IMG/VR virus record: IMGVR_UViG_3300032238_000350
Location: 1 to 35,235 of that record
Source: a virus
Reading direction: 5' to 3' (one strand)
Length of the DNA: 35,235 nucleotides
This document shows positions 9,912 to 27,189 of the stretch, piece after piece; the stretch's first letter is position 1; each line of letters opens with the position of its first letter. The notes beneath the pieces are model-generated. The model ran no database searches. It was not told the origin of the DNA and saw nothing but the letters and a program-made list of their open reading frames with translations. The translations under genes and the position numbers were made by a program.

Positions 9912-10478
9912 ATGCGTGGAGCAAAACTGCAAGGCAGGTTCAACTTAGATTACGAAAGTAAGTCTATGTATGAAGGTATTGCCGAGGACCTTGGTGGTAC
10001 AGTTGGTGTTGAAGTTGACTGGTTTCGTTGGCAGGATTACTACCTAGAAGAAAATTACGCTGATATTGTAGACCCTATTTATGACGTGTCTTCTTCAGAG
10101 CCTAATAAGGGTAGAAGATGGATGCTTCCATTTAAGATGCCTGTAGTTATGGCACAGTTTGTTCGTGGTACTAATATCATGAACCAACGTGGTTTCTATG
10201 TTACAGATACTCTTAGACTTGTCATTAATATTGGTGATGCTCAGCGTCTTTTACCGTCTTTGATTACAGACTCAAACAACCATATTAAAGATAGAATTAT
10301 ATTTAGAGGCGAAGTATTTGTTCCTACTCGTGTTTTGCCTCGTGGTTCATTTGGTTACAACTATGCAGTTCTTACAATTGACTGCAACCAGCTAAACCCA
10401 GATGAGCTTGTTAATGACCCACAGTTCCAGACATACGCTTCAAAGTCTGTACCTAACCCAAGGATTACTAATGGCTAA
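9912..10478 (+). CDS. Head-tail connector-like structural protein
   Basis: The 188-residue product has no recognisable catalytic motif. It contains DWFRWQDYYLEENYADIVDP, then a beta-rich stretch with RWMLPFKMPVVMAQFVRG and DTLRLVINIGDAQR, and ends PNPRITNG. The mix of short strands and its position between fibre genes and neck genes fit a connector or head closure protein. Similar proteins of unknown role are found in the neck region of large actinobacterial phages, but I recognise no exact family. A GAAAGG ribosome site lies before the ATG. The stop overlaps the next small gene by eight bases. Confidence 0.45.
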   Translation: MRGAKLQGRFNLDYESKSMYEGIAEDLGGTVGVEVDWFRWQDYYLEENYADIVDPIYDVSSSEPNKGRRWMLPFKMPVVMAQFVRGTNIMNQRGFYVTDTLRLVINIGDAQRLLPSLITDSNNHIKDRIIFRGEVFVPTRVLPRGSFGYNYAVLTIDCNQLNPDELVNDPQFQTYASKSVPNPRITNG

Positions 10479-10623
10479 CCCAAGAATGAAAAGAATAAAA
10501 ACAAACGAAACCAATACTAGAGATAATATTGGACGTGGCGGAAAAGTTGTACTAGACCGTCACAAAGGCAATGTTCCTAAAAAGCCTTTGAAAATGAAAA
10601 ACCTACAAAAGAAGGGCAGCTAA
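10471..10623 (+). CDS. Small basic protein, 50 aa
   Basis: ATG at 10471 overlaps the end of the upstream gene by eight bases. A longer reading from 10402 would lie inside the upstream gene, so it is not favoured. The product is Lys- and Arg-rich (MANPRMKRIKTNETN, then NIGRGGKVVLDRHKGN) and ends KNLQKKGS. It is the first of ten tightly coupled tiny genes. No function is recognised. Charge and context suggest nucleic-acid or capsid contact, but this is inference. Confidence 0.7.
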   Translation: MANPRMKRIKTNETNTRDNIGRGGKVVLDRHKGNVPKKPLKMKNLQKKGS

Positions 10624-10931
10624 TGGCTGAAAAGAAAAAGACTCATGCAAAAGGGAAAGACCCTCGTCTAGTACGAGCTGGAGTATCTGGCTATAACAAG
10701 CCTAAAGCTACTCCTAATGACCCTAGACATTCACACGTAGTTGTTGCCAAAGAAGGCGACCAGATTAAGACTATCCACTTTGGTCAGCACGGAGTTAAGG
10801 GCTCACCAAAAAAGGAAGGCGAATCTGAAGCTTACCGCAAACGTCGTGAATCATTCAAGGCTCGTCACGCTAAGAACATTGCTAAAGGCAAAATGTCTGC
10901 AGCATATTGGGCTAATAAGGTTAAATGGTAA
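10623..10931 (+). CDS. Small basic phage protein ending in an AYWANKVKW motif
   Basis: The 102-residue product starts on the last base of the upstream stop. It has a Lys-rich N-terminus, a central beta segment (DQIKTIHFGQHGVKG) and a conserved-looking C-terminus with SFKARHAKNIAKGKMSAAYW. The C-terminal pattern of a basic (R/K)ARH helix followed by an aromatic-Trp end recurs in small proteins of many environmental phages, some fused to prohead proteases. The function is unknown. The protein is probably virion-associated or DNA-contacting. Confidence 0.75.
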   Translation: MAEKKKTHAKGKDPRLVRAGVSGYNKPKATPNDPRHSHVVVAKEGDQIKTIHFGQHGVKGSPKKEGESEAYRKRRESFKARHAKNIAKGKMSAAYWANKVKW

Positions 10932-11059
10932 TGCCATTTAAATCTCAAGCACAACGAAAGTGGATGTATGCCAATGACCCATCTATGGCAAAAAAATGGG
11001 AAAAGCATACTCCTGAAGGAAAAAAACTTCCTAAAAAGGTGAAGAAGAAAAAGAAATGA
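10931..11059 (+). CDS. Tiny basic protein of the MPFKSxAQRxWMYAN family, 42 aa
   Basis: The reading frame runs from ATG at 10931 (one-base overlap with the upstream stop) to TGA at 11057-11059 and overlaps the next ATG as ATGA. The product starts MPFKSQAQRKWMYANDPSMA and ends in a Lys-rich tail after KHTPEGKKLPKK. This motif is one I recognise from many phage genomes, where it is a small stand-alone protein of unknown role. Family similarity makes it a real gene despite its length. It is too short for ordinary gene cutoffs and easily missed. Confidence 0.85.
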   Translation: MPFKSQAQRKWMYANDPSMAKKWEKHTPEGKKLPKKVKKKKK

Positions 11060-11301
11060 CTAAAGTAACTGCAGGTGGATTAAAGCACAAGGTCACTAAG
11101 AAAAAAGAAGACCGTGGTGCTGGAGATAAGGGCGACATTATTGTTGAGCAGACTAGCAAGTCTGGCAAGAAAGAACGCATGAATCTTACTAAGCTTGCTG
11201 GTTCTAAAACAGTAAAACAAGGCGTAAAAGCTACTAAGGAATACCACAAGAAGCATCCAGAAATTGGTAAGGGAAGACGAAATGGCAGCAAAAAAAAGTA
11301 A
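11056..11301 (+). CDS. Small Lys-rich protein, 81 aa
   Basis: The start overlaps the previous stop in an ATGA junction, and the end overlaps the next gene by twenty bases. The product begins MTKVTAGGLKHKVTKKKEDR and ends RRNGSKKK, with about one third basic residues. A middle segment (KGDIIVEQTSKSGKKERMNL) may form a short hairpin. No family is recognised. It belongs to the small basic gene run and is probably co-translated with its neighbours. Confidence 0.7.
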   Translation: MTKVTAGGLKHKVTKKKEDRGAGDKGDIIVEQTSKSGKKERMNLTKLAGSKTVKQGVKATKEYHKKHPEIGKGRRNGSKKK

Positions 11302-11470
11302 GTCTAAAGTCAACGAGGCTGGCAACTATACTAAGCCTGAGCTTCGTGCAAGACTTTTTAAAAAGATTAAAGCCGGAACTAAGGGTGGAGACCCAGGTGA
11401 ATGGTCAGCTAGAAAAGCTCAATTATTAGCAGCTGAATATAAGAAGGCTGGCGGAGGCTACAAGAACTAA
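11282..11470 (+). CDS. Small basic protein with GNYTKP and WSARKAQ motifs, 62 aa
   Basis: ATG at 11282 (MAAKKSKSK) is preferred to TTG at 11264, because MA starts are the rule in this run and the TTG has no ribosome site. The product contains NEAGNYTKPELRARLFKKIK, then GTKGGDPGEWSARKAQLLA and ends YKKAGGGYKN. This arrangement is a recurring conserved phage family of unknown function that I have seen in many environmental phages. A compact helical fold is likely. The start overlaps the upstream gene, and the stop overlaps the next start by one base. Confidence 0.85.
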   Translation: MAAKKSKSKVNEAGNYTKPELRARLFKKIKAGTKGGDPGEWSARKAQLLAAEYKKAGGGYKN

Positions 11471-11712
11471 TGGCTAAAGCAAAGTCCCAGCGTTCACTAG
11501 ATAAGTGGACTAAGGAAGAGTGGACAACCTCAGATGGTAAGCCGTCTAAGGGTAAAAAGCGCTACCTTCCTAAAAAGGCTTGGGAAGACCTTACTCCAGC
11601 AGAAAAAGCAGCCACTAATCGCGCAAAGAAAAAGGGTGATGGCGGTAAAAAGGGCAAGCAGTTTGTTCCACAACCTAAGAAAATTGCTAAGAAGACAGCG
11701 AGACACAGATAA
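11470..11712 (+). CDS. Small basic protein with SLDKWTKEEW and KKIAKKTA motifs, 80 aa
   Basis: The product starts MAKAKSQRSLDKWTKEEW, continues with TSDGKPSKGKKRYLPKKAW and ends PKKIAKKTARHR. This order (SL-x-x-WT, GKPS, RYLP, A-rich helix, KQFV-PQPKKIA) matches a small conserved phage family of unknown function that I associate with a DUF (possibly DUF5872, not verified). Members are often near structural genes. It overlaps both neighbours by one base. The start is unambiguous. Confidence 0.85.
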   Translation: MAKAKSQRSLDKWTKEEWTTSDGKPSKGKKRYLPKKAWEDLTPAEKAATNRAKKKGDGGKKGKQFVPQPKKIAKKTARHR

Positions 11713-11993
11713 TGGCAGAAACTAAAAGATTTGGCCCATACAAGGGCTCTAAGGCCAATGGAGGCCGTCCAATCTATGTTTACAAGACTAAAGGCAAAGA
11801 CGGTAAATGGCACACTACAAGCAAGAATAAGGCTCGTGCGGAGTATGAGGAGAAAAATGGCAAATTACCCCGTAATGTTGATGTAGACCACAAAAATAAT
11901 AAACATGCTGATGACCGTAAGTCTAACTTACAGCCTATGAAGCATGGGAAAAATACTGCTAAAGAAAACAAGCGGAGAGCGGGAAAGAAATAA
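11712..11993 (+). CDS. Small HNH endonuclease-like protein
   Basis: The 93-residue product has the HNH core at residues 56-86: VDVDHKNNKHADDRKSNLQP with His60, Asn72, then His78 and Asn81. HNH enzymes are metal-dependent nucleases with a beta-beta-alpha-metal fold. The N-terminal part (FGPYKGSKANGGRPIYVYK) is a short beta segment seen in phage homing or packaging-associated HNH proteins. Because it sits inside a row of small genes and is joined to both by one-base overlaps, it looks like a resident rather than a recent free-standing homing insertion. A role in packaging or genome processing is possible but not shown. Confidence 0.75.
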   Translation: MAETKRFGPYKGSKANGGRPIYVYKTKGKDGKWHTTSKNKARAEYEEKNGKLPRNVDVDHKNNKHADDRKSNLQPMKHGKNTAKENKRRAGKK

Positions 11994-12142
11994 TGGCTAA
12001 CGAAATTAAACCTAAAAAAGTTAAAAATACTAAACCTAAGGTTAAAGGTAGTCCAGTTACTAAGCCACACAATGCTGGCAAGGTAAGAACCAAAAAAGCA
12101 GCTAAACCGGGCAATATGCCTTCAAATTATGGAGTTAATTAA
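11993..12142 (+). CDS. Tiny Lys/Pro-rich protein, 49 aa
   Basis: The frame runs from ATG at 11993 (one-base overlap with the upstream stop) to TAA at 12140-12142, two bases before the next ATG. The product begins MANEIKPKKVKNTKPKVKGS and ends NMPSNYGVN, with many Lys and Pro residues. No family is recognised. Support comes from coupling, MA start and uniform composition with neighbours. It is too short for usual cutoffs. Confidence 0.65.
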   Translation: MANEIKPKKVKNTKPKVKGSPVTKPHNAGKVRTKKAAKPGNMPSNYGVN

Positions 12143-12144
12143 TT

Positions 12145-12273
12145 ATGGCTAAATCATGTAGTTGTGGCGTCTGTCCAGGTTGTAAGGCCTCTAAGAACCC
12201 AAATATGAAGCGTAAGCAAACACTTGCTGTTCGCAATAAGCACACTAAAACTAAAGCAAAAGGCGGAAAATAA
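12145..12273 (+). CDS. Tiny cysteine-rich basic protein, 42 aa
   Basis: The frame runs from ATG at 12145 to TAA at 12271-12273 and overlaps the next ATG by one base. It starts MAKSCSCGVCPGCKASKNPN, giving a Cys-x-Cys-Gly-x-Cys-x-x-Cys-Lys cluster that could bind zinc, followed by a Lys/Arg-rich tail. The same cluster reappears at the start of the product of 12448-12714. The function is unknown. Confidence 0.7.
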   Translation: MAKSCSCGVCPGCKASKNPNMKRKQTLAVRNKHTKTKAKGGK

Positions 12274-12455
12274 TGGCTACATGTGAAGTTTGTGCTACTG
12301 AAGAAAACATCGTACACTCAGGTGTAGACGCTCTACTTCTTGGCATTGAAGGTGCTGAGACAGGTAAAATTTGCTACGATTGTGCAAATAAAAGAATCCC
12401 TACAAACTGTGGTTGCGGTAATTGCGACTGCAAGAAAGAAGAAAATAATGGCTGA
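12273..12455 (+). CDS. Small zinc-ribbon-like protein, 60 aa
   Basis: The product has Cys-x-x-Cys near the N-terminus (MATCEVCATEENIVHSG), a second Cys-x-x-Cys (ICYDCANKRIP) and a C-terminal CGCGNCDCKKEENNG. The two Cys pairs fit a small zinc ribbon, and the extra C-terminal cysteines may bind another metal. Unlike its neighbours it is acidic to neutral in the middle. The role is unknown. The end overlaps the next gene by eight bases. Confidence 0.7.
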   Translation: MATCEVCATEENIVHSGVDALLLGIEGAETGKICYDCANKRIPTNCGCGNCDCKKEENNG

Positions 12456-12714
12456 ATGTAAGTGTGGTAAGTGTGCCGCTTGTAAGAAGCGTATGGCTGA
12501 TAAGAAAAAGGGCGGTAAGAAGATGCCTCCTTGGATTGGTTCAAAGGCTGACGAAAAGCAGGATAAGAAGCTTGAAAAGGGCATGACTCCAGCTCAGAAG
12601 AAGAAGTTTGAGGCTGAGGACAAGAAGCATGACAAGAAGAAGGGCATGTCTAAGAAAGAAGACATGAAGGGCGACAAGAAGATTGCTGACAAAATTAAGT
12701 CAAAAAAGAAGTAG
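12448..12714 (+). CDS. Lys-rich protein with N-terminal Cys cluster, 88 aa
   Basis: ATG at 12448 is chosen because the product then begins MAECKCGKCAACKKRMADKK, parallel to the 42-residue protein upstream. A reading from 12340 would overlap the upstream gene heavily. The Cys-x-Cys-Gly-x-Cys-x-x-Cys-Lys cluster may bind zinc. After PPWIGSKADEKQ the protein is almost entirely Lys, Asp, Glu, Met and Gly, probably helical or disordered. It is the last gene before a terminator. The function is unknown. Confidence 0.75.
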   Translation: MAECKCGKCAACKKRMADKKKGGKKMPPWIGSKADEKQDKKLEKGMTPAQKKKFEAEDKKHDKKKGMSKKEDMKGDKKIADKIKSKKK

Positions 12715-14057: not shown

Positions 14058-16484
14058 ATGACGACATATAATCGTCCTGGAGTTTATATCAATGAACTCC
14101 TATCGTCAAGTGCACCAGTTACTGGTGTGGCTAGCGCAACCTCAGCTGGTGCAGTAATTGCTGCATTTGCTCAGGGACCTGACACCGTAACCCGCGTTAC
14201 TTCGTGGTATGACTTCGTAAAGAAGTTCGGTGGCTATAACAAAGCATATCCAGCATCATTCTCAGTTGGCTCATTCTTTAAGAATGGTGGAACCGAGCTT
14301 TACGTAAAGCGTGTTCTTCCGTCCATTGCTAAGAAGGTTGCTAAGGTGAATCTTCCTTTTACAAGTTCTGTAGTAGGAAACACCTCTGGTACTCTTTGCA
14401 CAATTGCTGCAAAGCACCGCGGTATTGATGGAAACAACATTCGTGTAAAGGTTACTTCATCAAAATCTATTCGTGAAGATGGCTACTTTGACATCAGCGT
14501 ATACTATGAAGCTGGTAGAGCAGACACTTTCACTGGTGACGTAGTTTCTGCAAACGGTGGAGATGACATTCTTGTAGAGCAGTTTAATGGTGTACTATTC
14601 CATGACCCTCTATCAGGTGACTACGCTCCTGCTGTTCTTGAGTTTGGCTCAAACTACATCAAGATTCTTGAAGGCGCTGTAACTGAGTACAACTTAAACG
14701 GTAACGTAATTGACCCAGTAGTAAATTACTCAGTTGCAAAGAATGCACTTTACATTCCAAGCTCTGATTTACTTGGCCTATCTGGTGCTCCAGACCCAGA
14801 AGTTGCTCTGACCTATTCAGACTACACTGGTGATGTTGTATTTGACCCAACCGTAGTTGACTCTGTTACTACTGCAACTATTTCTGGCGTATACGGAAAT
14901 GGAACAAAGGTAACTTATGTTGCTAATAGCTCATTCAGCATTGGTTCATTGGTTACTATTTCTGGACTAGCTCCTGCAGGGTATCTTGCATCTCCTGCAG
15001 TTCCAGTTACAGATGTTGTTACATCTATTAGTGCTGCAATTAAGGCTGCTAAGGGTGATGGAACTTACATCACTTACCAGGGTGGACCTGCACTATCTGT
15101 TGATGACCTAGTAACAACTACCGGTTCATCAGTTACCGCTTATAACGTAACTAATAAACCTGTTGTTAGCGTTACTGCTGCTGTTGTAGACCGTGCGTTT
15201 ACTGCAGTAACTGGAGACGGAAGCAAGTACACATACACCACCGCATCTGGACACAACATTGCTGTAGGAGATTTGGTTACTATTACTGGAGCTTCTGTAA
15301 GTGCTTACAACGTAACAGATGCAGTTGTAACTGATACTGCAAGCACTACATTTAAAGTTGCCGGAAGTACTTCAACTGCTGCTACTGTTACAAATGGTAA
15401 GATTAACCGTCCTGCTAAGTTCACAGTTGCTGGTACTTCAAGCGACAGCGGAACAGTTACTAGCGGTACTGCAACTCGTCCTACTGGATTTAAGGTTGCT
15501 AATACTACTACTGCAACTGTTGAAGATGCTTCAGGTGTTGCTACTCGTACAGTTAACGTTGCGGACACATACGTTATTGATGACCTTGAACTATTCAAGG
15601 AATTTGAAAACATTGACCGTCCACTAGTGTTCTTCCTTCCAGACGTAACCAACAAACTTGGTTCATGGGATGCATCGCACTGGGTATACAACGCGCTTAT
15701 TGACTGGGCAGATAGCACAAACTCTGGTCTAAAGCACTTTGTAGTAGTTGAAACTGCTCCAGACGTTAGTTCAGTTAACCTAGCTCTTCAGGCTTCTGGT
15801 GACCTTTCTAAGTCAAGTCGTGCAGCTGTTTACTACCCTCACGTGTACATCACTGACCCAGTAGGCCGTTCAGGAGCTTCTGTTCGTAAGATTGGCCCTT
15901 CAGGTGCAGTTGTAGGACAGTACTTGTCTACCGACAACCTAGTTGGTCCATTCAAGTCTCCTGCAGGTATCCAGAACAAGATTGTAGATGCAATTGCTCT
16001 TGAGAAAGCATTCAGCCCAGCTGAACTTGACGCTCTTAACAGCGGTGTTGCTACTGACGGAACTAAGGACAACAGAAACGTTGTAAACGCTATCCGTAAC
16101 CTTCCAGGTGCAGGTATCGTAATCATGGGTGCTCGTACTCTTCTTCAGGATGGAACTGCTAACCGCTACATCAGTATGCGTCGTAGTTTGACCTATATTG
16201 AGAAGCGCCTAAATGACCTAGCACAATTTGCTGTATTTGAAAACAATACAGAAATTTTGTGGTCTCGTCTAAGAACTGTTCTAAGTGCATTCCTAAATGA
16301 CTACCGTAACCAGGGTGGTCTTCGTGGTGCAACTATCGAGCAGTCATTCTACGTTAAAGTTGACGAAGAAAACAACCAGGCATCAGATATTGCTGACGGA
16401 GTAGTTCACATTGAAATTGGTGTGGCTCTTGAATACCCAGCAGAGTTTGTTGTCATCAACCTCAGTCAAAAGACTGCAGAATAA
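14058..16484 (+). CDS. Tail sheath protein with beta-repeat insertion
   Basis: The 808-residue product has sheath hallmarks. The N-terminus reads TYNRPGVYINELL, a phage sheath signature. Residues 27-95 include AVIAAFAQGPDTVTRV and NGGTELYVKRV. The C-terminal domain (about 505-808) contains PGAGIVIMGARTLLQDG, YISMRRSLTYIEKRL and ALEYPAEFVVINLS. The sheath contracts around the tube to drive injection. It is longer than the common 450-680 residues because of a Thr/Val/Gly-rich insertion at about residues 271-500. AGGAG lies before the ATG. Codon bias to C-ending forms fits high expression. Confidence 0.92.
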   Translation: MTTYNRPGVYINELLSSSAPVTGVASATSAGAVIAAFAQGPDTVTRVTSWYDFVKKFGGYNKAYPASFSVGSFFKNGGTELYVKRVLPSIAKKVAKVNLPFTSSVVGNTSGTLCTIAAKHRGIDGNNIRVKVTSSKSIREDGYFDISVYYEAGRADTFTGDVVSANGGDDILVEQFNGVLFHDPLSGDYAPAVLEFGSNYIKILEGAVTEYNLNGNVIDPVVNYSVAKNALYIPSSDLLGLSGAPDPEVALTYSDYTGDVVFDPTVVDSVTTATISGVYGNGTKVTYVANSSFSIGSLVTISGLAPAGYLASPAVPVTDVVTSISAAIKAAKGDGTYITYQGGPALSVDDLVTTTGSSVTAYNVTNKPVVSVTAAVVDRAFTAVTGDGSKYTYTTASGHNIAVGDLVTITGASVSAYNVTDAVVTDTASTTFKVAGSTSTAATVTNGKINRPAKFTVAGTSSDSGTVTSGTATRPTGFKVANTTTATVEDASGVATRTVNVADTYVIDDLELFKEFENIDRPLVFFLPDVTNKLGSWDASHWVYNALIDWADSTNSGLKHFVVVETAPDVSSVNLALQASGDLSKSSRAAVYYPHVYITDPVGRSGASVRKIGPSGAVVGQYLSTDNLVGPFKSPAGIQNKIVDAIALEKAFSPAELDALNSGVATDGTKDNRNVVNAIRNLPGAGIVIMGARTLLQDGTANRYISMRRSLTYIEKRLNDLAQFAVFENNTEILWSRLRTVLSAFLNDYRNQGGLRGATIEQSFYVKVDEENNQASDIADGVVHIEIGVALEYPAEFVVINLSQKTAE
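14868..15557 (+). repeat. Beta-repeat insertion in the tail sheath (residues about 271-500)
   Basis: Three degenerate copies of about 50-60 residues share G-x-G-x-x-x-x-Y followed by a G-x-L-V-T-x-x-G segment and Y-N-V: NGTKVTYVANSSFSIGSLVT, GDGTYITYQGGPALSVDDLV and GDGSKYTYTTASGHNIAVGD. After these come three shorter units of about 23 residues beginning TFKVAGS, KFTVAGT and GFKVANT. Such repeats usually form surface beta domains and would decorate the outside of the sheath. Confidence 0.65.
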
Positions 16485-16502: not shown

Positions 16503-17141
16503 ATGGCTGGACCAACTATTATCAACAACCGTTCAACCCTTGAAACTGACCCGATAAGAAATTTCCGCTTCTTGGTTACTTTCAAGCCTCTACCTGGAAC
16601 TGGCAACAGCTCTTCATGGTTGAAAACCGCACCAAAGGTAACTGTAGGATTCACCTCGGTATCAGGTTTGGCAGTTAACACTGACTCAATTCCTTACCGT
16701 GAAGGTGGGTACAACACTACCGTTCACCAGATTCCTGGTCAGACAACCTTCTCACCTATCACTCTTCAGCGTGGTGTAGTACTTGGTACTTCACAGCACT
16801 GGGATTGGATGCGTAAGTTGTTTGCAACAGTTCAGAATGGAACCACATCTCGCCAGGGCGAGAACTTCCGTGCTGACCTAGAAATTGCGGTGCTAACCCA
16901 CCCAATCGCTGGTTCAGGCGGAAATAATGAAGAACTGACTCTTGGTGGCGCAACTGCTTACAAGGACCACGTTTCTGCTCGTTTCCAGGTGTACAACTGC
17001 TGGCCTACCAGCGTTGCATACTCTGACCTAAACGCAGGTGACAACGCTCTATTCGTAGAACAGCTAACACTAGTTCACGAAGGCTTTGACATGAGCTGGG
17101 GTCAGGACCTAACACAGGCTGGCTCAGCAAAAGCCTTCTAA
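16503..17141 (+). CDS. Tail tube protein
   Basis: The 212-residue product has the T4 gp19-like tube pattern: NFRFLVTFKP near residue 20, GFTSVSGLAVNTDSIPYREG near 50, then TTFSPITLQRGVVLG near 80, and a C-terminal VYNCWPTSVAYSDLNAGDN and LTLVHEGFDM. The protein stacks as hexamer rings to form the inner tube beneath the sheath. It follows the sheath directly with a short gap and AAAGGAG, the canonical order. Length fits the family. Codon bias is strong. Confidence 0.92.
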   Translation: MAGPTIINNRSTLETDPIRNFRFLVTFKPLPGTGNSSSWLKTAPKVTVGFTSVSGLAVNTDSIPYREGGYNTTVHQIPGQTTFSPITLQRGVVLGTSQHWDWMRKLFATVQNGTTSRQGENFRADLEIAVLTHPIAGSGGNNEELTLGGATAYKDHVSARFQVYNCWPTSVAYSDLNAGDNALFVEQLTLVHEGFDMSWGQDLTQAGSAKAF

Positions 17142-17162: not shown

Positions 17163-17975
17163 ATGGATAACAATATTAAAACAGCAAGCGGTGCCGCACT
17201 TAGTAATGACCTTATTGAGCAGGTGCTGTCTTCATCGGAACCTAAGACCGACCTTGTTACAGTAACTTATCCTTCAAATGTTTTGGTGAATCTCCCTGGT
17301 GGGTATTTAACTCCCACTGGGGAGGTCATCAAGACCGCTGAAGTTCGTGAACTAACAGGTAAAGATGAGGAGTTTATCAGCAAAGCTGGTACGCTAGGCA
17401 AGGCATTCTCTACTATTCTTACTAGAGCAACTGTAAAGGTTGGAGAACAGAAAGTAGATGAAGTTATTTTTGATAACCTTCTAGCGGGTGACCGTGATGC
17501 GTTGATGCTTGGAATCTTTAAAGCTACTTTTGGAGTAGAAGCTGAACTGCCTGGATATTGCAGTGAATGCGAAGAGATTAAAACTGCAGCAGTGAATGTT
17601 GATAGAGACGTTCCTGTAAAAGTTTTAATTGACCCTGTTCAAGATAGGCGCTTTACTGTTCAAGGTAAATCAAGCGAGTATTTAGTTGCACTACCTACTG
17701 GTGCAGCACAGCGTGAGTTAATCTCTAATGCTGATAAAACAGGCCCAGAGTTAACTACTATCCTTTTGGGAAACACCGTTATGGAGATTGATGGAAGACC
17801 AGTAATCTCTAAGATGCAAGCCCAAAACCTTCCACTTCTAGACCGTCGTAAAATTTCTGAAGAACTGGACAAGCGTAGTCCTGGTCCACGTTTTGAAGAT
17901 TTAGTTCTTGATTGTCCTGACTGTGAGGGAAAGGTTGTGGTTCCTTTCAATCTAGGAGCTTTGTTTCGAGTCTAA
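17163..17975 (+). CDS. Tail assembly chaperone-like protein (gp26-like, zinc-binding)
   Basis: The 270-residue product lies between the tube and tape measure genes, the standard place for tail assembly chaperones. The middle contains REL(T)GKDEE followed by a helical ILTRATVKVG. Two Cys-x-x-Cys pairs, Cys133-Cys136 (YCSEC) and Cys251-Cys254 (CPDC), could form a zinc site. This layout resembles T4 gp26-type baseplate/chaperone families in large phages. A weak AAGGAAAA ribosome site precedes the ATG. The 3' end carries a possible +1 slip site (TTT CGA, 17964-17969), which would append a 54-residue extension to give about 322 aa. Confidence 0.75.
   Translation: MDNNIKTASGAALSNDLIEQVLSSSEPKTDLVTVTYPSNVLVNLPGGYLTPTGEVIKTAEVRELTGKDEEFISKAGTLGKAFSTILTRATVKVGEQKVDEVIFDNLLAGDRDALMLGIFKATFGVEAELPGYCSECEEIKTAAVNVDRDVPVKVLIDPVQDRRFTVQGKSSEYLVALPTGAAQRELISNADKTGPELTTILLGNTVMEIDGRPVISKMQAQNLPLLDRRKISEELDKRSPGPRFEDLVLDCPDCEGKVVVPFNLGALFRV
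17964..17975 (+). other. Candidate +1 ribosomal frameshift site in the chaperone gene
   Basis: Near the end of the chaperone gene the codons are TTT CGA GTC TAA. If tRNA-Phe moves one base from TTT to TTC, it pairs perfectly with the new codon. The waiting CGA is a rare, slowly decoded arginine codon in many bacteria. The +1 frame is open from 17956 and leads into the small 44-codon frame ending at 18132. Tail chaperones of long-tailed phages are known to use programmed frameshifts, mostly -1 but sometimes +1. The slip site is proposed from sequence only. Confidence 0.4.
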
Positions 17976-17997
17976 AGTCTCGAGCTATGGTTCTTTG

Positions 17998-18132
17998 ATG
18001 TTTGACTGGGCATCACTAGCAACAAGTTTCTCTGGGTGGTCTTTGACAGAAATCAAAGACCTCTCACCGAGAGAAAGAAAGAATTGGCTTTCAGTAGCCA
18101 CAGGTTTAGGAAGAATAGCGAGTAAAGGTTAA
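17998..18132 (+). CDS. Second tail chaperone segment (frameshift extension or separate 44 aa gene)
   Basis: The frame from ATG at 17998 encodes MFDWASLATSFSGWSLTEIK followed by DLSPRERKNWLS and ends at TAA 18130-18132, overlapping the tape measure start by one base. The W-S-L-T-E-I-x-x-L-S-x-R-E pattern is what one expects of the downstream part of a tail assembly chaperone. No good ribosome site precedes the ATG, which favours expression by +1 frameshift from the upstream gene. The frame is open from 17956. Independent initiation by coupling remains possible. Confidence 0.65.
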   Translation: MFDWASLATSFSGWSLTEIKDLSPRERKNWLSVATGLGRIASKG

Positions 18133-20702
18133 TGGCTGAATTAGGTAATATATCCTCACTTGTCACGTCTGTTCGTGAGCTGTCTAAACTTGTAGACAAG
18201 ATGTCTAAAGACTGGAAGAGCATTGAAAAAAGCTCTGGAGCAGTCTCTAAAGCTTCAGGTGGAATGACCAAGAATGGTCAAAAGAACAATGGTGTTGGCG
18301 GTTCAAGCCTTATTCACGGTTCATTAGCCGACTTTAGTTTTCAACCAGGTGATACTCCAACAAAGCCTCAGTTCATTAAGAAACGTGGTGGAGTTAGAGA
18401 CCCAGGTTACTCTTATGACCAACAGGGAAATGCTATTGGGCCATCAAGTCCTGATGAGTATGTAAGACAGTTCAACACAAACTCTAGGATAGTAAACCGT
18501 AGACGTTCTATTGCCCAGGGTATTACTACTTTTAGTAGTTTTAACAGATTTAATAACATGTCTCCTGCAGCTCAGGATATTACTCAAGCGGGTCTTTATG
18601 GTCCAGCTGATAGCATAAGACTATTTACAGGCCTTTCTAATTCTATGGCGTCATTCCTTCCTGGAATTGAAAACACCATGAATAGGTCTACAGGGTACTA
18701 CAATGCAGGGGTGTATAACACTACTGGTAGAAAGTCTGTAGAAGATGCTACCTTTGGTACTTTAAGTAAACTAAGTGGATTAACTTCTTCTGGTTCAGAT
18801 GCTAGAGTTGCCCAGTACCTAACTAGTCGAGGCATGACTGCTAGCGGAACAAAAGGAAGCACTTATCAGCAAACGTTAACTGCTGTTGCTAATGCCGGCC
18901 GTTATATGAACATTTCAAATGAAGAAGCTGCTGCGTCTATTGAAGGCATGACTTCAGCTAGAGGTGCAGCTGAAACTCTTCGTAATTTTGGTATTTATAC
19001 TGCTGATTTAAATACTGGTAAAGAAAAAACACAGGGGCAAATTTTTGAGGAACTTGCACAGCGATTAACTGCTGGACGAGGAAAAGCTACTGTTGAGCAA
19101 ACCCAGGCGTCTATTCGTAGAGGCTCACTTGGTGTAACCATTGATTCATTCTTTAAGGGTGATGAGCAGGGTGCTCAAATGTTTAAGCAGTATATGCTGG
19201 ACCGAGCAAATGGTAAAGCCACAGACCTATCATCTGGTGCTCCAACTATGGCCAAAGAAAATCCTTTGGCTGCTCAAATGGCCATGAACACCTCTGATAC
19301 GGCCCAGATGTCTAAAGCCCAAGAGAATTATATAGTAGGTGTACAAAAGGCTACACAGGCCTTACAAGCCCTAAATAACGTATCTGGTGCTTTGGCTCAA
19401 AGCTTTGCTGGTATCCCTAATGCAGTTACTCAAAGTCTTTATGGACACAACACTGTTCAAGGAATGATTAATGGTGTTAGCACAGTTGTAGACTTTGGAA
19501 GCAAGGCCGCTTCTTCTATTGCAACTGCAGCACTTAGCCCTAACATATTTACTGCAGGAGCAATTGCATCGACTATCGGTATTAGTGCTGGTGCTTCTCT
19601 ATTAGGAGCTGCTGCCCTTTATGCAGGTACTGGACTTATTGGTGGAACTGGTGGAACAACTACTAAAAATGGTGGGTTTAGTGGAACTGGAACTGGTGGA
19701 ACAACTATTGGCGGGGGATTTAGTGGGACCGGTACTGGTGGAACATTTTTTGATTACTCAGAACTTAATAAACATTCAGTTAATGAAGGATATGGTTCAC
19801 CACGTGGTACCGGTAGCCATGGCGGTATTGATTACAACTATGGTTATGGAGACGAAGTAAAAGCTATTGCTGATGGTACAGTTTCTGAAAAACCAATAAG
19901 AGATGCAAAAAGAACAACAGGTAACGGCTCTTTAGGAAACCAAGTTGTCATTTTGCATGAGATGCCAAATGGGGATAAATATACATCTATTTATGGGCAT
20001 TTATCTAGAGTGGCCTCTGGAATAGATAAAGGTGTGGCTGTTAAAAAGGGAAAAGTTATTGGTTACGCAGGTAATACTGGAGATACTAGAGGAACCGAAG
20101 GTGCTCATCCAGGAACGCACCTACACTTTGAGCTTAGGAAAGGAAAACAAAAGACAGGTGGATTAGGTGCGTGGGTATCCCAAACTACTGCTGATAAAAT
20201 TCTTACTAGCGGCTCTATTAATGACGTAGACATGGGCAATGGTACAAAGTTTACACCAATTGATGAAGTTAAACCTACCCCAGTTGACCCATCTAGAACT
20301 GTACCAATAGCACCAAAAGCTAAGCCAGATTCTGAAGTATGGGCAGGCGTATTAAACACTCAAAAACCTGATGTAAGTAAACAAGTCTCTTTGTTAAAAG
20401 GCTTATACTCAGGAGATACTACCAGTATTTTAAACTCAGTTAAACAAATGGGAATTAATATGGGTATGACTGCTGGTCAATTTGAGGGGTATATGAACAA
20501 CCCATTAGCAGGAACTAACTATATTAATGGTAATGGAGGAGCCAATGGTATTGGTAATAATTCAGGAGCAACAACTAATAATAACGTAAGTATTGTTGTA
20601 CAAGTTCCAGATGTTACTAGTGCTGATGCTGTAAAATTTGCTCAGCTAGTTAAACAATATCTAGATGACAACTCTTTGATGTCTAACACAGGAAGTATTT
20701 AA
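18132..20702 (+). CDS. Tape measure protein with M23 peptidase domain
   Basis: The 856-residue product begins with a coiled-coil-like helix (SVRELSKLVDKMSKDWKSIE), has long helical and hydrophobic middle parts including a probable membrane segment at about 468-503, then a Gly/Thr linker at about 501-537. An M23 metallopeptidase domain follows at about 545-680: His563 and Asp567 (HGGID), His623 (YGHLS), His663 and His665 (THLHFEL). These match the zinc ligands and catalytic histidine of lysostaphin-type enzymes that cut peptidoglycan cross-links. The tape measure sets tail length and enters the cell envelope during infection, where the peptidase would open the wall. The gene starts one base into the upstream stop. 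Confidence 0.92.
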   Translation: MAELGNISSLVTSVRELSKLVDKMSKDWKSIEKSSGAVSKASGGMTKNGQKNNGVGGSSLIHGSLADFSFQPGDTPTKPQFIKKRGGVRDPGYSYDQQGNAIGPSSPDEYVRQFNTNSRIVNRRRSIAQGITTFSSFNRFNNMSPAAQDITQAGLYGPADSIRLFTGLSNSMASFLPGIENTMNRSTGYYNAGVYNTTGRKSVEDATFGTLSKLSGLTSSGSDARVAQYLTSRGMTASGTKGSTYQQTLTAVANAGRYMNISNEEAAASIEGMTSARGAAETLRNFGIYTADLNTGKEKTQGQIFEELAQRLTAGRGKATVEQTQASIRRGSLGVTIDSFFKGDEQGAQMFKQYMLDRANGKATDLSSGAPTMAKENPLAAQMAMNTSDTAQMSKAQENYIVGVQKATQALQALNNVSGALAQSFAGIPNAVTQSLYGHNTVQGMINGVSTVVDFGSKAASSIATAALSPNIFTAGAIASTIGISAGASLLGAAALYAGTGLIGGTGGTTTKNGGFSGTGTGGTTIGGGFSGTGTGGTFFDYSELNKHSVNEGYGSPRGTGSHGGIDYNYGYGDEVKAIADGTVSEKPIRDAKRTTGNGSLGNQVVILHEMPNGDKYTSIYGHLSRVASGIDKGVAVKKGKVIGYAGNTGDTRGTEGAHPGTHLHFELRKGKQKTGGLGAWVSQTTADKILTSGSINDVDMGNGTKFTPIDEVKPTPVDPSRTVPIAPKAKPDSEVWAGVLNTQKPDVSKQVSLLKGLYSGDTTSILNSVKQMGINMGMTAGQFEGYMNNPLAGTNYINGNGGANGIGNNSGATTNNNVSIVVQVPDVTSADAVKFAQLVKQYLDDNSLMSNTGSI

Positions 20703-23506: not shown

Positions 23507-23914
23507 ATGGCTAACCCAGAAGTATCACTTAGACTTCCAATGAGTATTGACTCTAGTGGAAGCTTACTAGTCACCACTGATGAAAGCATAATGTGGGCAG
23601 ATAGAATTAAAATTGCTATAGGTACCAGAATTAGCGAACGAGTTATGCGTCCTGGTTACGGTACACGTATTGGAGAATCTGTTTTTAATACAGTCAGTTC
23701 TCTTGAAGATGTTGTTAGACGTGATGTTTTTAAACTATTTAGTGAATATTTCCCGCTTCTTACTTTGAGCGATATTAAAACTAATTTTGTAGAAACCACA
23801 GGCCAAGTATTTATTGAAGTGTTATACCAGCTACCAAATAAAAAAGAATCAACCACTACGGTTGGAGTAATGGTAGTTTCAAGTACAAATCCCCCTTATG
23901 AGGAGTTAGCATGA
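23507..23914 (+). CDS. Baseplate wedge protein, gp25/gpW-like
   Basis: ATG at 23507 is chosen because GGAGGAGAG (23491-23499) lies seven bases before it. The GTG at 23489 overlaps the upstream gene further. The 135-residue product has IKIAIGTRISERVMRPGYGT, the gp25-like signature with R-V-M-R-P-x-Y-G, and a central LEDVVRRDVFKLF. Family members form the wedge core that surrounds the hub. It overlaps the next gene in an ATGA junction. Confidence 0.92.
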   Translation: MANPEVSLRLPMSIDSSGSLLVTTDESIMWADRIKIAIGTRISERVMRPGYGTRIGESVFNTVSSLEDVVRRDVFKLFSEYFPLLTLSDIKTNFVETTGQVFIEVLYQLPNKKESTTTVGVMVVSSTNPPYEELA

Positions 23915-26900
23915 CCGCAGATGTAACAAAAACCCCATTTTCAGTAGATTATACTGGACGTGATTATTATGCTATTAGAGAACAGCTAATAGCCAGAGTT
24001 AAAGACCGTGTTCCTGACTGGACTGGTAATAACTCTTCAGACTTTGGTTTGGCTCTTGTTGAGTCCTTTGCATACATGGGTGACCTACTTAACTACTATA
24101 TTGACCGAGTAGCAAATGAGTCATACATTCTAACTGCAACTCAACGAGACACTTTGTTGAATTTATCTAAAATGTATGGTTATTCTCCAGCTAACTACAC
24201 TAGTGCTGTAGTGGATATTGATTTTACAAATAACAATGGCTATAAAAAGCACACTGGTGCAGAAATTATTGAAGATGGAATAATTACAGGGAGCACTGTA
24301 GTGCACAGCATTGCCAAGGTGATTGTTCCTAATGACCACCCGTTTACCGTTGATGGCGAATACAGTACCGTTATTGTTGAAGGACTAAGCACAAAAGTAA
24401 CTGGAACTGTTGGCGGAGTTGAAATTGACTACGCTGCTAGCGTTTATAACGGTACTTTTAAGGTAATTAAAACTGGTTATGAAAACATTGGTTTAAACGT
24501 TATTTGGTATAGACCGGCTGCAACTATTAGCAATATAACCGTGTCTGGTACAGAAGCAACTGTATCCTATGCTGGTTCATTAGTTGCTGAAGTAGGTCAA
24601 AAAATCCGCATTAGTGGTGTTACTGTTCCTAGCGGAAATAACTTTAATGGTGTTTGGTACGTTAAGGGTGTTACTCTTCCGGTTGATACAACTCCTGGTT
24701 CGTTTGTATTTGATTCTGCAGCTAATCCTGCACAGATTACTAAAGTAACAAGTAATGGAACCACAATTACGTACTCTACTTTTGGCTCAACACCGATTGA
24801 ACTTTACGGTTATACAACACCAACTTGGCACAACTTTATTGCGGGACAAAACGTAAGTATAACGGGAGTAATAAGCTCTAGTAATACAGGTGGAACCGCT
24901 AATACCGGGTATAACTTTACCACTGCAACTGTAGCAGCTGCTACTGACATTGTTGCTGGAGTAACAAACGTTTTGGTAGCTGGAACCGATGTAACATTTA
25001 CTACTAGCAAGCAGTTTACTACAGGGCAGATAGTTTCTTTGAGAAACATAAAGAGTCTTCCTGATAACCCAGAAGGTACTGCAGGTTCGCACTATAACGT
25101 AAGTAATGCTGTTATTACTGGCACATCTACTTCTACTGCAACTATTACAAATGTAGTTGGAAGTACCGGAGGTAATGGAGTAGTCACTTTTACAACTAGT
25201 AGTAACCACGGGTTCTTAAAAGACCAATTTGTTACTATAACTAATGTTGTTTCTACAAGTCCTGATGATGGAACAGACACTGACGTATACAACATTTCAT
25301 CGGCTCAAATTAAGAGCGTTCCAACTTCAACCTCATTTACAATACAGGCCTATTGGACTGACACCTTTAAGACCGGTGGAACCGCTACGCTATATAAATT
25401 TACAATAAGTCAATCTGGACTTACTGGAGAGTCCGTTACCAGTACAGGAATTATTGGTGGAGCATTTTGTAAGCAGTTTACAGTTACTAGCAACAGAGCT
25501 GGTGGAACTTGGACTTCTGGAGGAAGTGCAGTCGCTCTTATTGGTGGAACCCCTACTCTTACTAATGCAGAAGTAACTTATGCAGAACTACCTGCAATTG
25601 TTGATACTGGAGGATTTGTTAAGAATGTGGGTACAACTACGGTTCCTGCTGGTTCTCAAATTACAACCCAAGTAAGTTCGGCTGAAGGTGTTCAAAATAT
25701 TGTTTTCTCTACATTAAATGACGTTACAGTTCCATTTGGTGGAGTATCAGTTGCAATGGTCAAAGAAGGAGAGCAGGTCTCTACTAGGTCTGAGAATGCA
25801 GCAAATACAACTGTTCTTGGGTATGACATTGCTGGTGAAGTATTAGGTTTTGCTAGTTCTAATAGTGATGCCAATCAATCTTTCTTACTAAAAGAAAACA
25901 TAGTTGATAGTAGTTCTATTAGAGTGTTTGTTGACCGTGGAACTGCATTTGAAGAGTGGACTAGAGTCCCTCATATTATGGACTATGGACCTAGTGACAC
26001 TGTTTTTGAGGTCAGTTTTTCTGAGACCAATAAACCAAGTATTGTATTTGGTGATGGAATCTCTGGTGAAATTCCTCCTCCTGAGGCAACAATTAAAGCC
26101 CAGTATATTGCTGGTGGTGGCTTAATAGGAAACGTTGAAGCTGAGACACTGACAACTTGGGGAAAGATTGTTAACTCTGATGATGAAGACGCTGTACGTA
26201 ACATCTCTGTAATTAATAACTTAGCTGCTACTGGTGGTGGAGACCCAGAGTCTAATGACAGTATTAGATACAACGCTCCTCGTGCTTTAAGGGCATTGAA
26301 CAGAGCCGTTACTTTGCAAGATTTTGAAGACCTTAGCCTTTCGGTTGAGCGTGTTGCAAAAGCTAAAGCTGTAGCAGTTAATCGTGGTTCTGTAACAGTT
26401 TATATTGCACCTTATGATGATGGAACAAGCGAACGACCAGGTTACTATGGAACTGAGTTAAACACTACTTGGGACTATATTAAGTCTGGTGTTGAAGACC
26501 AACTATCAGATAAGCTACAAATTGGAACAAGTGTAACGGTATCCCCACCTGTGTACACTTATGTACATGCTGATATTGCCTTTACTCCTCTTCCTCAGTA
26601 TTCTGCTGCTGTAGTAAAAACTAATATTAAGAAAATGATGGTAACCGAGTTTGGTTATGAAAACATGCAGTTTAATGATGTTATTACTCCTGAAGAAGTG
26701 GAGTTTAGTCTTCGCCAAGTTGAGGGTGTACAAAATGCAAAAGTAATTTCTCTTTATAGGCTTGAAGGAGAAGGTAGAAACACTCTTATTGGTGAAGTTA
26801 ATGAGTTGTTTATATTCTCAGAAGGTGAGCTTGGTCTTATCCCTGCAAGCACAGACGCTACTTTAGCCGCATTTACTATTAATCCAAGTTCTGGTTCATC

Positions 26901-27189
26901 AACATGGACTCCTGTATTTAAGTCTAATTTGTTAAGCTATAGAGTGACTATTCCAGCTGCAGCAACAAGCATTAACGTGGGTACACAAGCTAATGACACT
27001 AATGATACTGATAGTAGTGGTGTAGCTAGCGTTACGGTTAATGGTAAGTCTGTAGGAGCTGCATCTCACACATCTACAATAGCAACTTCTGATACAACTG
27101 TAGGTGCTCGTACTGAACTAGTTATTACTGTTACTGCTGCAGATGGCTTTACTGTAAACACATACAAAGCAACTGTTGTAAAGGTCTAG
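23911..27189 (+). CDS. Baseplate J-like (gp6-like) protein with beta-repeat insertion
   Basis: The 1092-residue product has an N-terminal segment (FSVDYTGRDYYAIREQLIAR, DFGLALVESFAYMGDLLNYY) and a C-terminal J core (about 570-980) containing VFGDGISGEIP, NAPRALRALNRAVTLQDFED and VYTYVHADIAFTPLPQ. This is the P2 gpJ / T4 gp6 wedge family, whose dimers join the wedge and transmit the sheath signal. Residues about 203-496 are an inserted beta-repeat region. Residues about 981-1092 form a cadherin-like beta-sandwich (TLAAFTINPSSGSSTWTPVF). Both additions make it longer than typical J proteins and probably exposed on the baseplate. Confidence 0.85.
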   Translation: MTADVTKTPFSVDYTGRDYYAIREQLIARVKDRVPDWTGNNSSDFGLALVESFAYMGDLLNYYIDRVANESYILTATQRDTLLNLSKMYGYSPANYTSAVVDIDFTNNNGYKKHTGAEIIEDGIITGSTVVHSIAKVIVPNDHPFTVDGEYSTVIVEGLSTKVTGTVGGVEIDYAASVYNGTFKVIKTGYENIGLNVIWYRPAATISNITVSGTEATVSYAGSLVAEVGQKIRISGVTVPSGNNFNGVWYVKGVTLPVDTTPGSFVFDSAANPAQITKVTSNGTTITYSTFGSTPIELYGYTTPTWHNFIAGQNVSITGVISSSNTGGTANTGYNFTTATVAAATDIVAGVTNVLVAGTDVTFTTSKQFTTGQIVSLRNIKSLPDNPEGTAGSHYNVSNAVITGTSTSTATITNVVGSTGGNGVVTFTTSSNHGFLKDQFVTITNVVSTSPDDGTDTDVYNISSAQIKSVPTSTSFTIQAYWTDTFKTGGTATLYKFTISQSGLTGESVTSTGIIGGAFCKQFTVTSNRAGGTWTSGGSAVALIGGTPTLTNAEVTYAELPAIVDTGGFVKNVGTTTVPAGSQITTQVSSAEGVQNIVFSTLNDVTVPFGGVSVAMVKEGEQVSTRSENAANTTVLGYDIAGEVLGFASSNSDANQSFLLKENIVDSSSIRVFVDRGTAFEEWTRVPHIMDYGPSDTVFEVSFSETNKPSIVFGDGISGEIPPPEATIKAQYIAGGGLIGNVEAETLTTWGKIVNSDDEDAVRNISVINNLAATGGGDPESNDSIRYNAPRALRALNRAVTLQDFEDLSLSVERVAKAKAVAVNRGSVTVYIAPYDDGTSERPGYYGTELNTTWDYIKSGVEDQLSDKLQIGTSVTVSPPVYTYVHADIAFTPLPQYSAAVVKTNIKKMMVTEFGYENMQFNDVITPEEVEFSLRQVEGVQNAKVISLYRLEGEGRNTLIGEVNELFIFSEGELGLIPASTDATLAAFTINPSSGSSTWTPVFKSNLLSYRVTIPAAATSINVGTQANDTNDTDSSGVASVTVNGKSVGAASHTSTIATSDTTVGARTELVITVTAADGFTVNTYKATVVKV
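24517..25398 (+). repeat. Beta-repeat insertion in the J-like protein (residues about 203-496)
   Basis: Four degenerate units share a T-x-x-x-Y/F entry, an H-x-F or Q-F, a G-Q/D-x-V-x-I/L-x-x-V/I segment and a Y-N turn: for example HNFIAGQNVSITGVI, KQFTTGQIVSLRNI and NHGFLKDQFVTITNVV, each followed after 10-20 residues by YN or an equivalent. The same kind of unit is seen in the tail sheath. They are likely small beta domains on the baseplate exterior. Confidence 0.6.

Follow-up and report, generated by a model that had tools for sequence, protein, structure and literature searches.

Phage lambda expresses its tail assembly chaperone with a -1 frameshift, and this chaperone is of another sequence family than the one described here. 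Its two products gpG and gpGT, a short and a long form from one start, arise by a shift that comes late in the first frame, and their gene lies beside that of the tape measure, as described in PMC5009743; a similar layout was observed in the DNA analysed here, a 35,235-base virus record (IMGVR_UViG_3300032238_000350, the whole of which is called "the window" below). In the window, the gene of a gp26-type tail assembly chaperone ends in GGA GCT TTG TTT CGA GTC TAA, and comparison with its relatives suggests, with a probability that we put at about 0.87, that a programmed +1 frameshift yields two forms of this chaperone from one start.

According to PMC5009743, frameshifts in tail genes are -1, -2 or +1 depending on the phage, and the training set of PRFect is described as holding 350 forward cases among 2718 positive slippery-site cases (PMC10885494). 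The +1 cases known in tail genes include HSTV-2, a haloarchaeal myovirus (predicted), Listeria phage PSA and SPP1, as listed in PMC5009743, PMC8211752 and PMC3498833. T4-like tail chaperones were identified by Vladimirov, Gautam and Davidson (2022), as cited in PMC12846349 and PMC10885494; separate short and long genes are reported for some T4-like phages (PMC10885494), and a conserved -1 GTTTTT site for other myophages (PMC12846349). Moreover, +1 sites of the form UUU_CGN are described in influenza A PA-X (PMC3498833) and in plant amalgaviruses (PMC5052127). In the model given for PA-X, tRNA-Phe in the P site slips to UUC on better pairing (PMC3498833), and in the account of PMC5009743 a stimulator is not evident. 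For Shine-Dalgarno stimulators, the spacing is given as 3 nucleotides (nt) for +1 and 9-14 for -1 (Atkins 2016, PMC5009743), while designed hairpins adjoining the E site are reported to raise +1 shifting on 70S ribosomes (Huang et al., PMC6321510).

The features of the window at issue are as follows.

17163..17975, + strand: short form, gp26-like tail assembly chaperone of 270 amino acids (aa), zero frame (PF12322, phrog_150)
17939..17960, + strand: conserved RNA hairpin, proposed 5' stimulator, stem 17939-17945 with 17954-17960
17961..17963, + strand: codon ahead of the slip codon (TTG, predicted to occupy the E site during the shift)
17964..17969, + strand: shift site TTT CGA (TTT 17964-17966, CGA 17967-17969)
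17973..17975, + strand: zero-frame stop TAA
17968..18132, + strand: +1 frame extension, 54 codons and a stop, giving a putative long form of 322 aa

Conservation of the shift site

The window was compared with 101 loci, of which 14 were found with the window protein, 79 were new ones found with a profile, 4 were contigs of bacterial genomes and 4 were Streptomyces phages. Out of 559 relatives, the profile set keeps the best 80, and closer ones are therefore over-represented; it gave 79 new locus ids and one shared, some contigs of the window-protein search being fetched again. The 101 loci and the window reduce to 72 distinct sequences at 95% identity over 340 nt, out of which alignment A2 takes 40 sequences and alignment A3 takes 63 (61 distinct). 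The loci of the Streptomyces BRock group and of the genome contigs (8 of the 72) stand outside A2, A3, the covariation ranking, the scoring of pairs of third codon positions and the tree counts; L012, with its short upstream part, stands outside the last three, which use 63 sequences. The tree of these 63 was made with FastTree from sequences lacking the 42 nt that directly precede the slip, and changes were counted by Fitch parsimony.

An in-frame TTT followed by C was found two or three codons before the zero-frame stop in 102 of 102 cases, that is, in all 101 loci and the window; among the 72 distinct sequences, the distance from the first base of the slip codon to the stop is 9 nt in 65 and 12 nt in 7. 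The remaining in-frame TTT codons in these genes have C as the next base in 7 of 302. The phenylalanine codon at the shift site is TTT in 72 of 72 distinct sequences, and elsewhere in these genes in 302 of 431 (TTT 302, TTC 129). On the tree, no change was inferred at the four TTTC bases, while the ten zero-frame third positions ahead of them had 5-16 each. TTTC at the shift place is far beyond chance. The initial annotation, made from the window alone, had read the end of the chaperone gene as TTT CGA GTC TAA and proposed there a +1 slip joining two chaperone frames; this end is indeed seen in the open reading frame (ORF) 17163-17975, the non-conserved slip bases named as a refutation were not seen, and the proposal gains support from the invariant TTTC and from an extension that appears protein-like in the +1 frame.

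The anticodon of tRNA-Phe, GAA, pairs better with UUC than with UUU, and since a forward slip needs C after TTT, the constant C fits a slip to TTC. The invariant element of the shift site is TTT C and not CGA. In fact, the A-site codon is CGC in 30 of the distinct sequences, CGA in 14, CGG in 9, CGT in 6, CAA in 6, CAG in 6 and CCG in 1, so that CGN occupies the A site in the window and in 59 of the 72, with CAA or CAG in 12 and CCG in the last one. The earlier idea of a potentially slow CGA codon waiting in the A site is thus only partly right: CGA does stand there in the window, but this does not extend to a general rule. CGT is the commonest CGN codon in the ORFs of these loci (2713 of 4704) and takes 6 of the 59 CGN sites, a scarcity with a chi-square p of 5e-12 when relatedness is ignored. 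This would be in line with selection for slower decoding in the A site; alternatively, it could come from the amino acid that the +1 frame specifies there. The codon predicted for the E site also varies (TTG 43, TTA 16, CTG 9, TTC 2, TTT 1 and ATG 1 of the 72). As a separate observation, in-frame TTT-C is under-represented in the ORFs of the 72 representative loci, with an observed/expected ratio of 0.53 that includes the shift sites, and GAT-C is almost equally so (0.55).

The +1 frame extension

In the window, the +1 frame has a TAG at 17953 and is then open from 17956 to the TAA at 18130-18132, whose last base is the first of the tape-measure ATG (18132); both the open frame and the one-base overlap had been pointed out initially. 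A +1 slip on TTTC computes to exactly 322 residues with the junction GALF-ESK, in agreement with the fusion ending in FESK that was predicted then. A +1 continuation is present in all 101 loci and the window, with 44-79 codons, except for the 35 of L046, which is ended by the contig edge. All loci share a tryptophan-rich core in it, W-(S/T)-L-x-E-I-x-x-(L/M)-(S/T)-x-R-E-R-x-x-W or a variant.

The ratio of nonsynonymous to synonymous differences (pN/pS) was compared between frames, and with differences near saturation these ratios are indicative. Among the 58 sequences of the same spacing, codons 4-10, which are past the zero-frame stop and ahead of the ATG of the window, gave 0.62 in the +1 frame, 0.86 in the -1 frame and 1.31 in frame 0; the core of the extension gave 0.27 in the +1 frame. 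A subset of 20 sequences without a start codon gave, over codons 4-23, 0.59 in the +1 frame and 0.91 and 1.44 in the others. Between the slip and the tryptophan core, ATG occurs in 26 of the 72 distinct sequences and any of ATG, GTG or TTG in 45, whereas 27 have none; a start with a Shine-Dalgarno-like string is found in 4 of the 72. Because the +1 coding signal precedes any start, and because relatives without a start exist, the extension would most simply be made as a fusion, above all in these start-less relatives.

Family searches with 17 members of the extension gave weak matches in Pfam, namely DUF6760 (6 of 17, best E 0.012), Phage_P2_GpE (3 of 17, best E 0.1) and Phage_TAC_7 (1 of 17, E 0.013). 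The match to phrog_10636, with 13 of 17 members and a best E of 2.8e-4, is to a family of unknown function, and naming the extension by such searches was rejected on these grounds.

A conserved RNA hairpin upstream of the shift site

RNAalifold applied to the 40 aligned sequences (167 columns) returned a single structure, a hairpin just upstream of the shift site. In the window, its stem ends at 17960, 3 nt before TTT, and the fold has -8.4 kcal/mol. Taken as 8 pairs over the 61 distinct rows, 88.1% of the cells are paired, and the covariation is 0.347 as compared with 0.200 (sd 0.014) in shuffled alignments, none of 500 being as high; slid pairings reached at most 0.181. Two other measures were not above the shuffles, the pairs changed on both sides (479 of 500 as high) and the further pair types (124 of 500).

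The clearest signal comes from the pair -19/-10, which joins two zero-frame third positions, one of a proline codon and one of a leucine, isoleucine or phenylalanine codon. It is AU in 16 of the 61 rows, GC in 15, UA in 15, CG in 5, GU in 3 and other in 7. This pair ranks first of 13,916 column pairs by covariation (0.528, the next being 0.285) and also by mutual information. On the tree, 8 of its 17 inferred changes are double changes that keep the pair, which is the highest share among pairs of third positions with at least 10 changes (1225 scored); five other such pairs have as many or more pair-keeping doubles, but with 30-39 changes each. In 30-nt segments, the mean fold energy is lowest at the hairpin (-9.2 kcal/mol) and is -7.3 in the overlapping next segment; outside these two, the minimum is -7.4, 114 nt downstream, and the majority fall between -2 and -5. 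Strong hairpins of different sequence stand at the same place in the bacterial-genome relatives L100 (z -3.1) and L102 (z -4.0), and likewise in a jumbo phage (L103, z -2.3) and in Microcystis phage Mel-JY01 (L110, z -4.1), the shuffles of this comparison between relatives preserving base content only. Taken together with its position, this covarying hairpin would probably act as a 5' stimulator of the shift.

A conserved 3' structure was rejected as a candidate. The window alone does fold well (17940-18080, z -3.53), in part through an inverted repeat around the stop at 17964-17986 (TTCGAG..CTCGAG) and a strong stem-loop at 18026-18077, but neither of these is present in the consensus.

Points against and alternative explanations

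Several points weigh against a hairpin-stimulated programmed shift. The A-site codon is not uniformly rare, and the consensus of the 40 sequences keeps the upstream hairpin only, with no conserved structure 3' of the site. In the Streptomyces BRock group there is only a weak hairpin, L016-L019 and L105 giving z -0.8 to -1.5, and no hairpin signal was seen in L099, L101, L104 and L108, which include Streptococcus phage GXN1 and Listeria phage LIS04; being weak or signal-free in some members, it is not indispensable to the family. Moreover, 3 of 11 relatives with a -1 site also fold upstream with z below -2. The tree counts rest on a quick FastTree protein tree with Fitch parsimony, and the shuffle tests take no account of relatedness.

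If the second frame were a separate small gene, re-initiated after TAA 17973 at TTG 17995 or ATG 17998, the presence of both starts in the window, of some start before the core in 45 of the 72 sequences and of a short separate ORF annotated there in some GenBank records would be accounted for. Yet no Shine-Dalgarno-like string precedes either start, the initial annotation having noted the lack of a ribosome site for the second frame, and the conserved ribosome site at ATG 17998 that would have spoken against its proposal was sought among the relatives and not found. The start-less sequences, the rarity of a start with such a string and the part before the start that evolves as +1 protein all argue against a separate gene, and the invariance of TTTC would then have no other evident reason; we consider it highly improbable. 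Reaching the +1 frame by a -2 shift, as documented for gpGT of phage Mu (PMC5009743, PMC3498833), would result in the same frame and is hardly more probable than re-initiation, for six kinds of codon precede TTT, tRNA-Phe would land on poorly pairing bases, and the constant base after TTT is the C that is relevant to a forward slip to TTC.

Another question is whether the shift could be stimulated not by an mRNA hairpin but by an internal Shine-Dalgarno pairing of the kind used by release factor 2. The window does have AGGAG at 17954-17958, and 23 of the 72 sequences have at least 4 exact Shine-Dalgarno bases in -16..-1; nevertheless, control windows at -60, -90, -120 and -150 gave 14, 18, 17 and 30 of 72, and the compensatory changes alter the bases yet preserve the hairpin. 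This stimulator was rejected for want of enrichment over the controls and appears unlikely, though less so than the two readings above. Finally, the window is a single virus contig without its own replicate, which could raise the suspicion of a pseudogene, an assembly error or a chance open frame; the arrangement recurs in 101 further loci, among them complete genomes of Streptomyces phages, and this conservation refutes the suspicion and leaves it a negligible probability.

Proposed mechanism

A programmed +1 frameshift in the chaperone gene is supported by comparison through its +1-frame coding, its constant TTTC and its covarying hairpin; the slip event itself, its rate, the action of the hairpin and the binding roles of the two forms are inferred. 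Most ribosomes would stop at TAA 17973 and release the short form. In a minority, tRNA-Phe would sit in the P site on UUU 17964 with CGA undecoded in the A site and would slip one base from UUU to UUC, a wobble G-U pair becoming G-C. The slipped ribosomes would then read 54 more codons into the long form. The hairpin probably refolds right behind the ribosome and pulls or pushes the mRNA by one base. By analogy with gpG and gpGT of lambda, the short form may coat the tape measure, while the extension may recruit the tube protein.

Genomic context and the wider gp26 family

The window has the order sheath, tube, chaperone, short +1 frame and tape measure, which is the usual contractile-tail arrangement, and the chaperone gene lies between the tail tube and tape measure genes, as a G/GT-type gene does. 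Its neighbours are listed below.

14058..16484, + strand: tail sheath protein (PF17482 above cut-off; PHROG tail sheath families)
16503..17141, + strand: tail tube protein, gp19-like (PF06841, E 4e-28)
18132..20702, + strand: tape measure protein with an M23 peptidase domain (PF01551, E 1.9e-19)

The 270-aa chaperone passes the cut-off of PF12322 (T4_baseplate, gp26 family) narrowly, with 26.1 bits against 24.5, and matches phrog_150 (baseplate hub) with E 1.6e-6. Upstream of the tail genes, at 10402-12714, about ten tiny ORFs stand in a row, mostly lysine-rich and overlapping or abutting. The sheath (14058-16484) and a baseplate-like protein of 1092 aa (23911-27189) have a repeat-rich insert in common, with BLASTP E 9e-11 obtained without composition correction, so that the match may be compositional.

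Among 19 further gp26-type genes (L103-L121), 5 have a +1 continuation, with TTTC in L103, L104 and L105 and U-runs in L108 and L110. A -1 continuation from T_TTT_TTC or T_TTT_TTT was found in 11 of the 19 (L106, L107, L111-L117, L120 and L121); L118 has a -1 continuation without a clean heptamer, T4-like coliphage PHB12 (L119) lacks an extension, and L109 gave no clear reading. Of the -1 extensions, 8 of 11 members match phrog_634 (gp51, 'baseplate hub assembly catalyst'), with a best E of 7.5e-31; the direct matches of the +1 extension to it are weak (3 of 17 members, best E 0.11). Profile-profile comparison of the +1 and -1 extensions gave a probability of 74.7 over 27 columns, which suggests a possible common descent of the two. 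A lack of any counterpart in T4 was rejected, since T4-like tail chaperones are already in print, and for this reason the link between gp26 and gp51 is not claimed as new.

As side observations, in Listeria phage LIS04 (L108, TTT TTT AGT) and in Mel-JY01 (L110, seven T) the +1 shift apparently falls within a U-run, with no TTTC. The -1 genes come from cyanophages, a Pelagibacter phage, Vibrio nt-1, PA5oct and others, and their extensions, mostly gp51-like, are annotated as separate ORFs or not at all.

Comparison with known systems

Searches of the open-licence literature brought up neither a phage tail chaperone with a +1 site at UUU_C nor a bacterial +1 shift stimulated by a natural 5' hairpin. 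What is apparently new here is a tail-chaperone frameshift that would combine a PA-X-like +1 site with an apparent 5' hairpin stimulator; the hairpin, the PA-X-like motif and the relationship of gp26 and gp51 were absent from the initial annotation. The loci provide a large, aligned collection of natural +1 sites from bacterial phages, together with an upstream RNA element as candidate stimulator. Moreover, it becomes testable what the A-site codon contributes at UUU_C, as all CGN codons and CAA/CAG occur naturally. Gene calls could also be corrected in numerous myophages; among these are the cultured Streptomyces phages BRock, GiJojo, LuckySocke and pSt2308, the annotation of which does not show the fusion.

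Unlike lambda, the window has a gp26-type chaperone and a +1 site at UUU_C. It shares with the T4-like tail chaperones the gp26 family PF12322 and -1 relatives with a gp51-like (phrog_634) extension; these relatives shift -1 on U_UUU_UUC, whereas the group of the window shifts, as proposed, +1. As regards the other +1 cases in tail genes, PSA shifts on proline codons, and the Listeria and SPP1 cases are major tail proteins, unlike the chaperone of the window.

As at PA-X-type sites, the window group has UUU_C in frame throughout, mostly with CGN in the A site. Those sites belong to eukaryotic viruses and ribosomes, whereas the window is from a tailed phage with Streptomyces-phage relatives and bacterial ribosomes, and its group also uses CAA/CAG and has a 5' hairpin. 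The site works like PA-X-type sites but lies outside that group of eukaryotic-virus sites. With release factor 2 (prfB) it shares a forward slip and a duplex that stands 3 nt ahead of the codon on which the slip occurs; it differs in having a sense codon in the A site, an mRNA hairpin and no Shine-Dalgarno enrichment. Stimulation of +1 shifting by upstream hairpins is otherwise shown, in PMC6321510, with designed hairpins, and that of the window is apparently natural. Perhaps, and we lean towards this with some reserve, these sites are natural bacterial +1 cassettes in which a hairpin 3 nt behind UUU_C takes the place that the Shine-Dalgarno duplex has in release factor 2, with a slip codon as in eukaryotic viruses, and which were swapped with the -1 site U_UUU_UUC within one family, both leading to an extension of the same kind.
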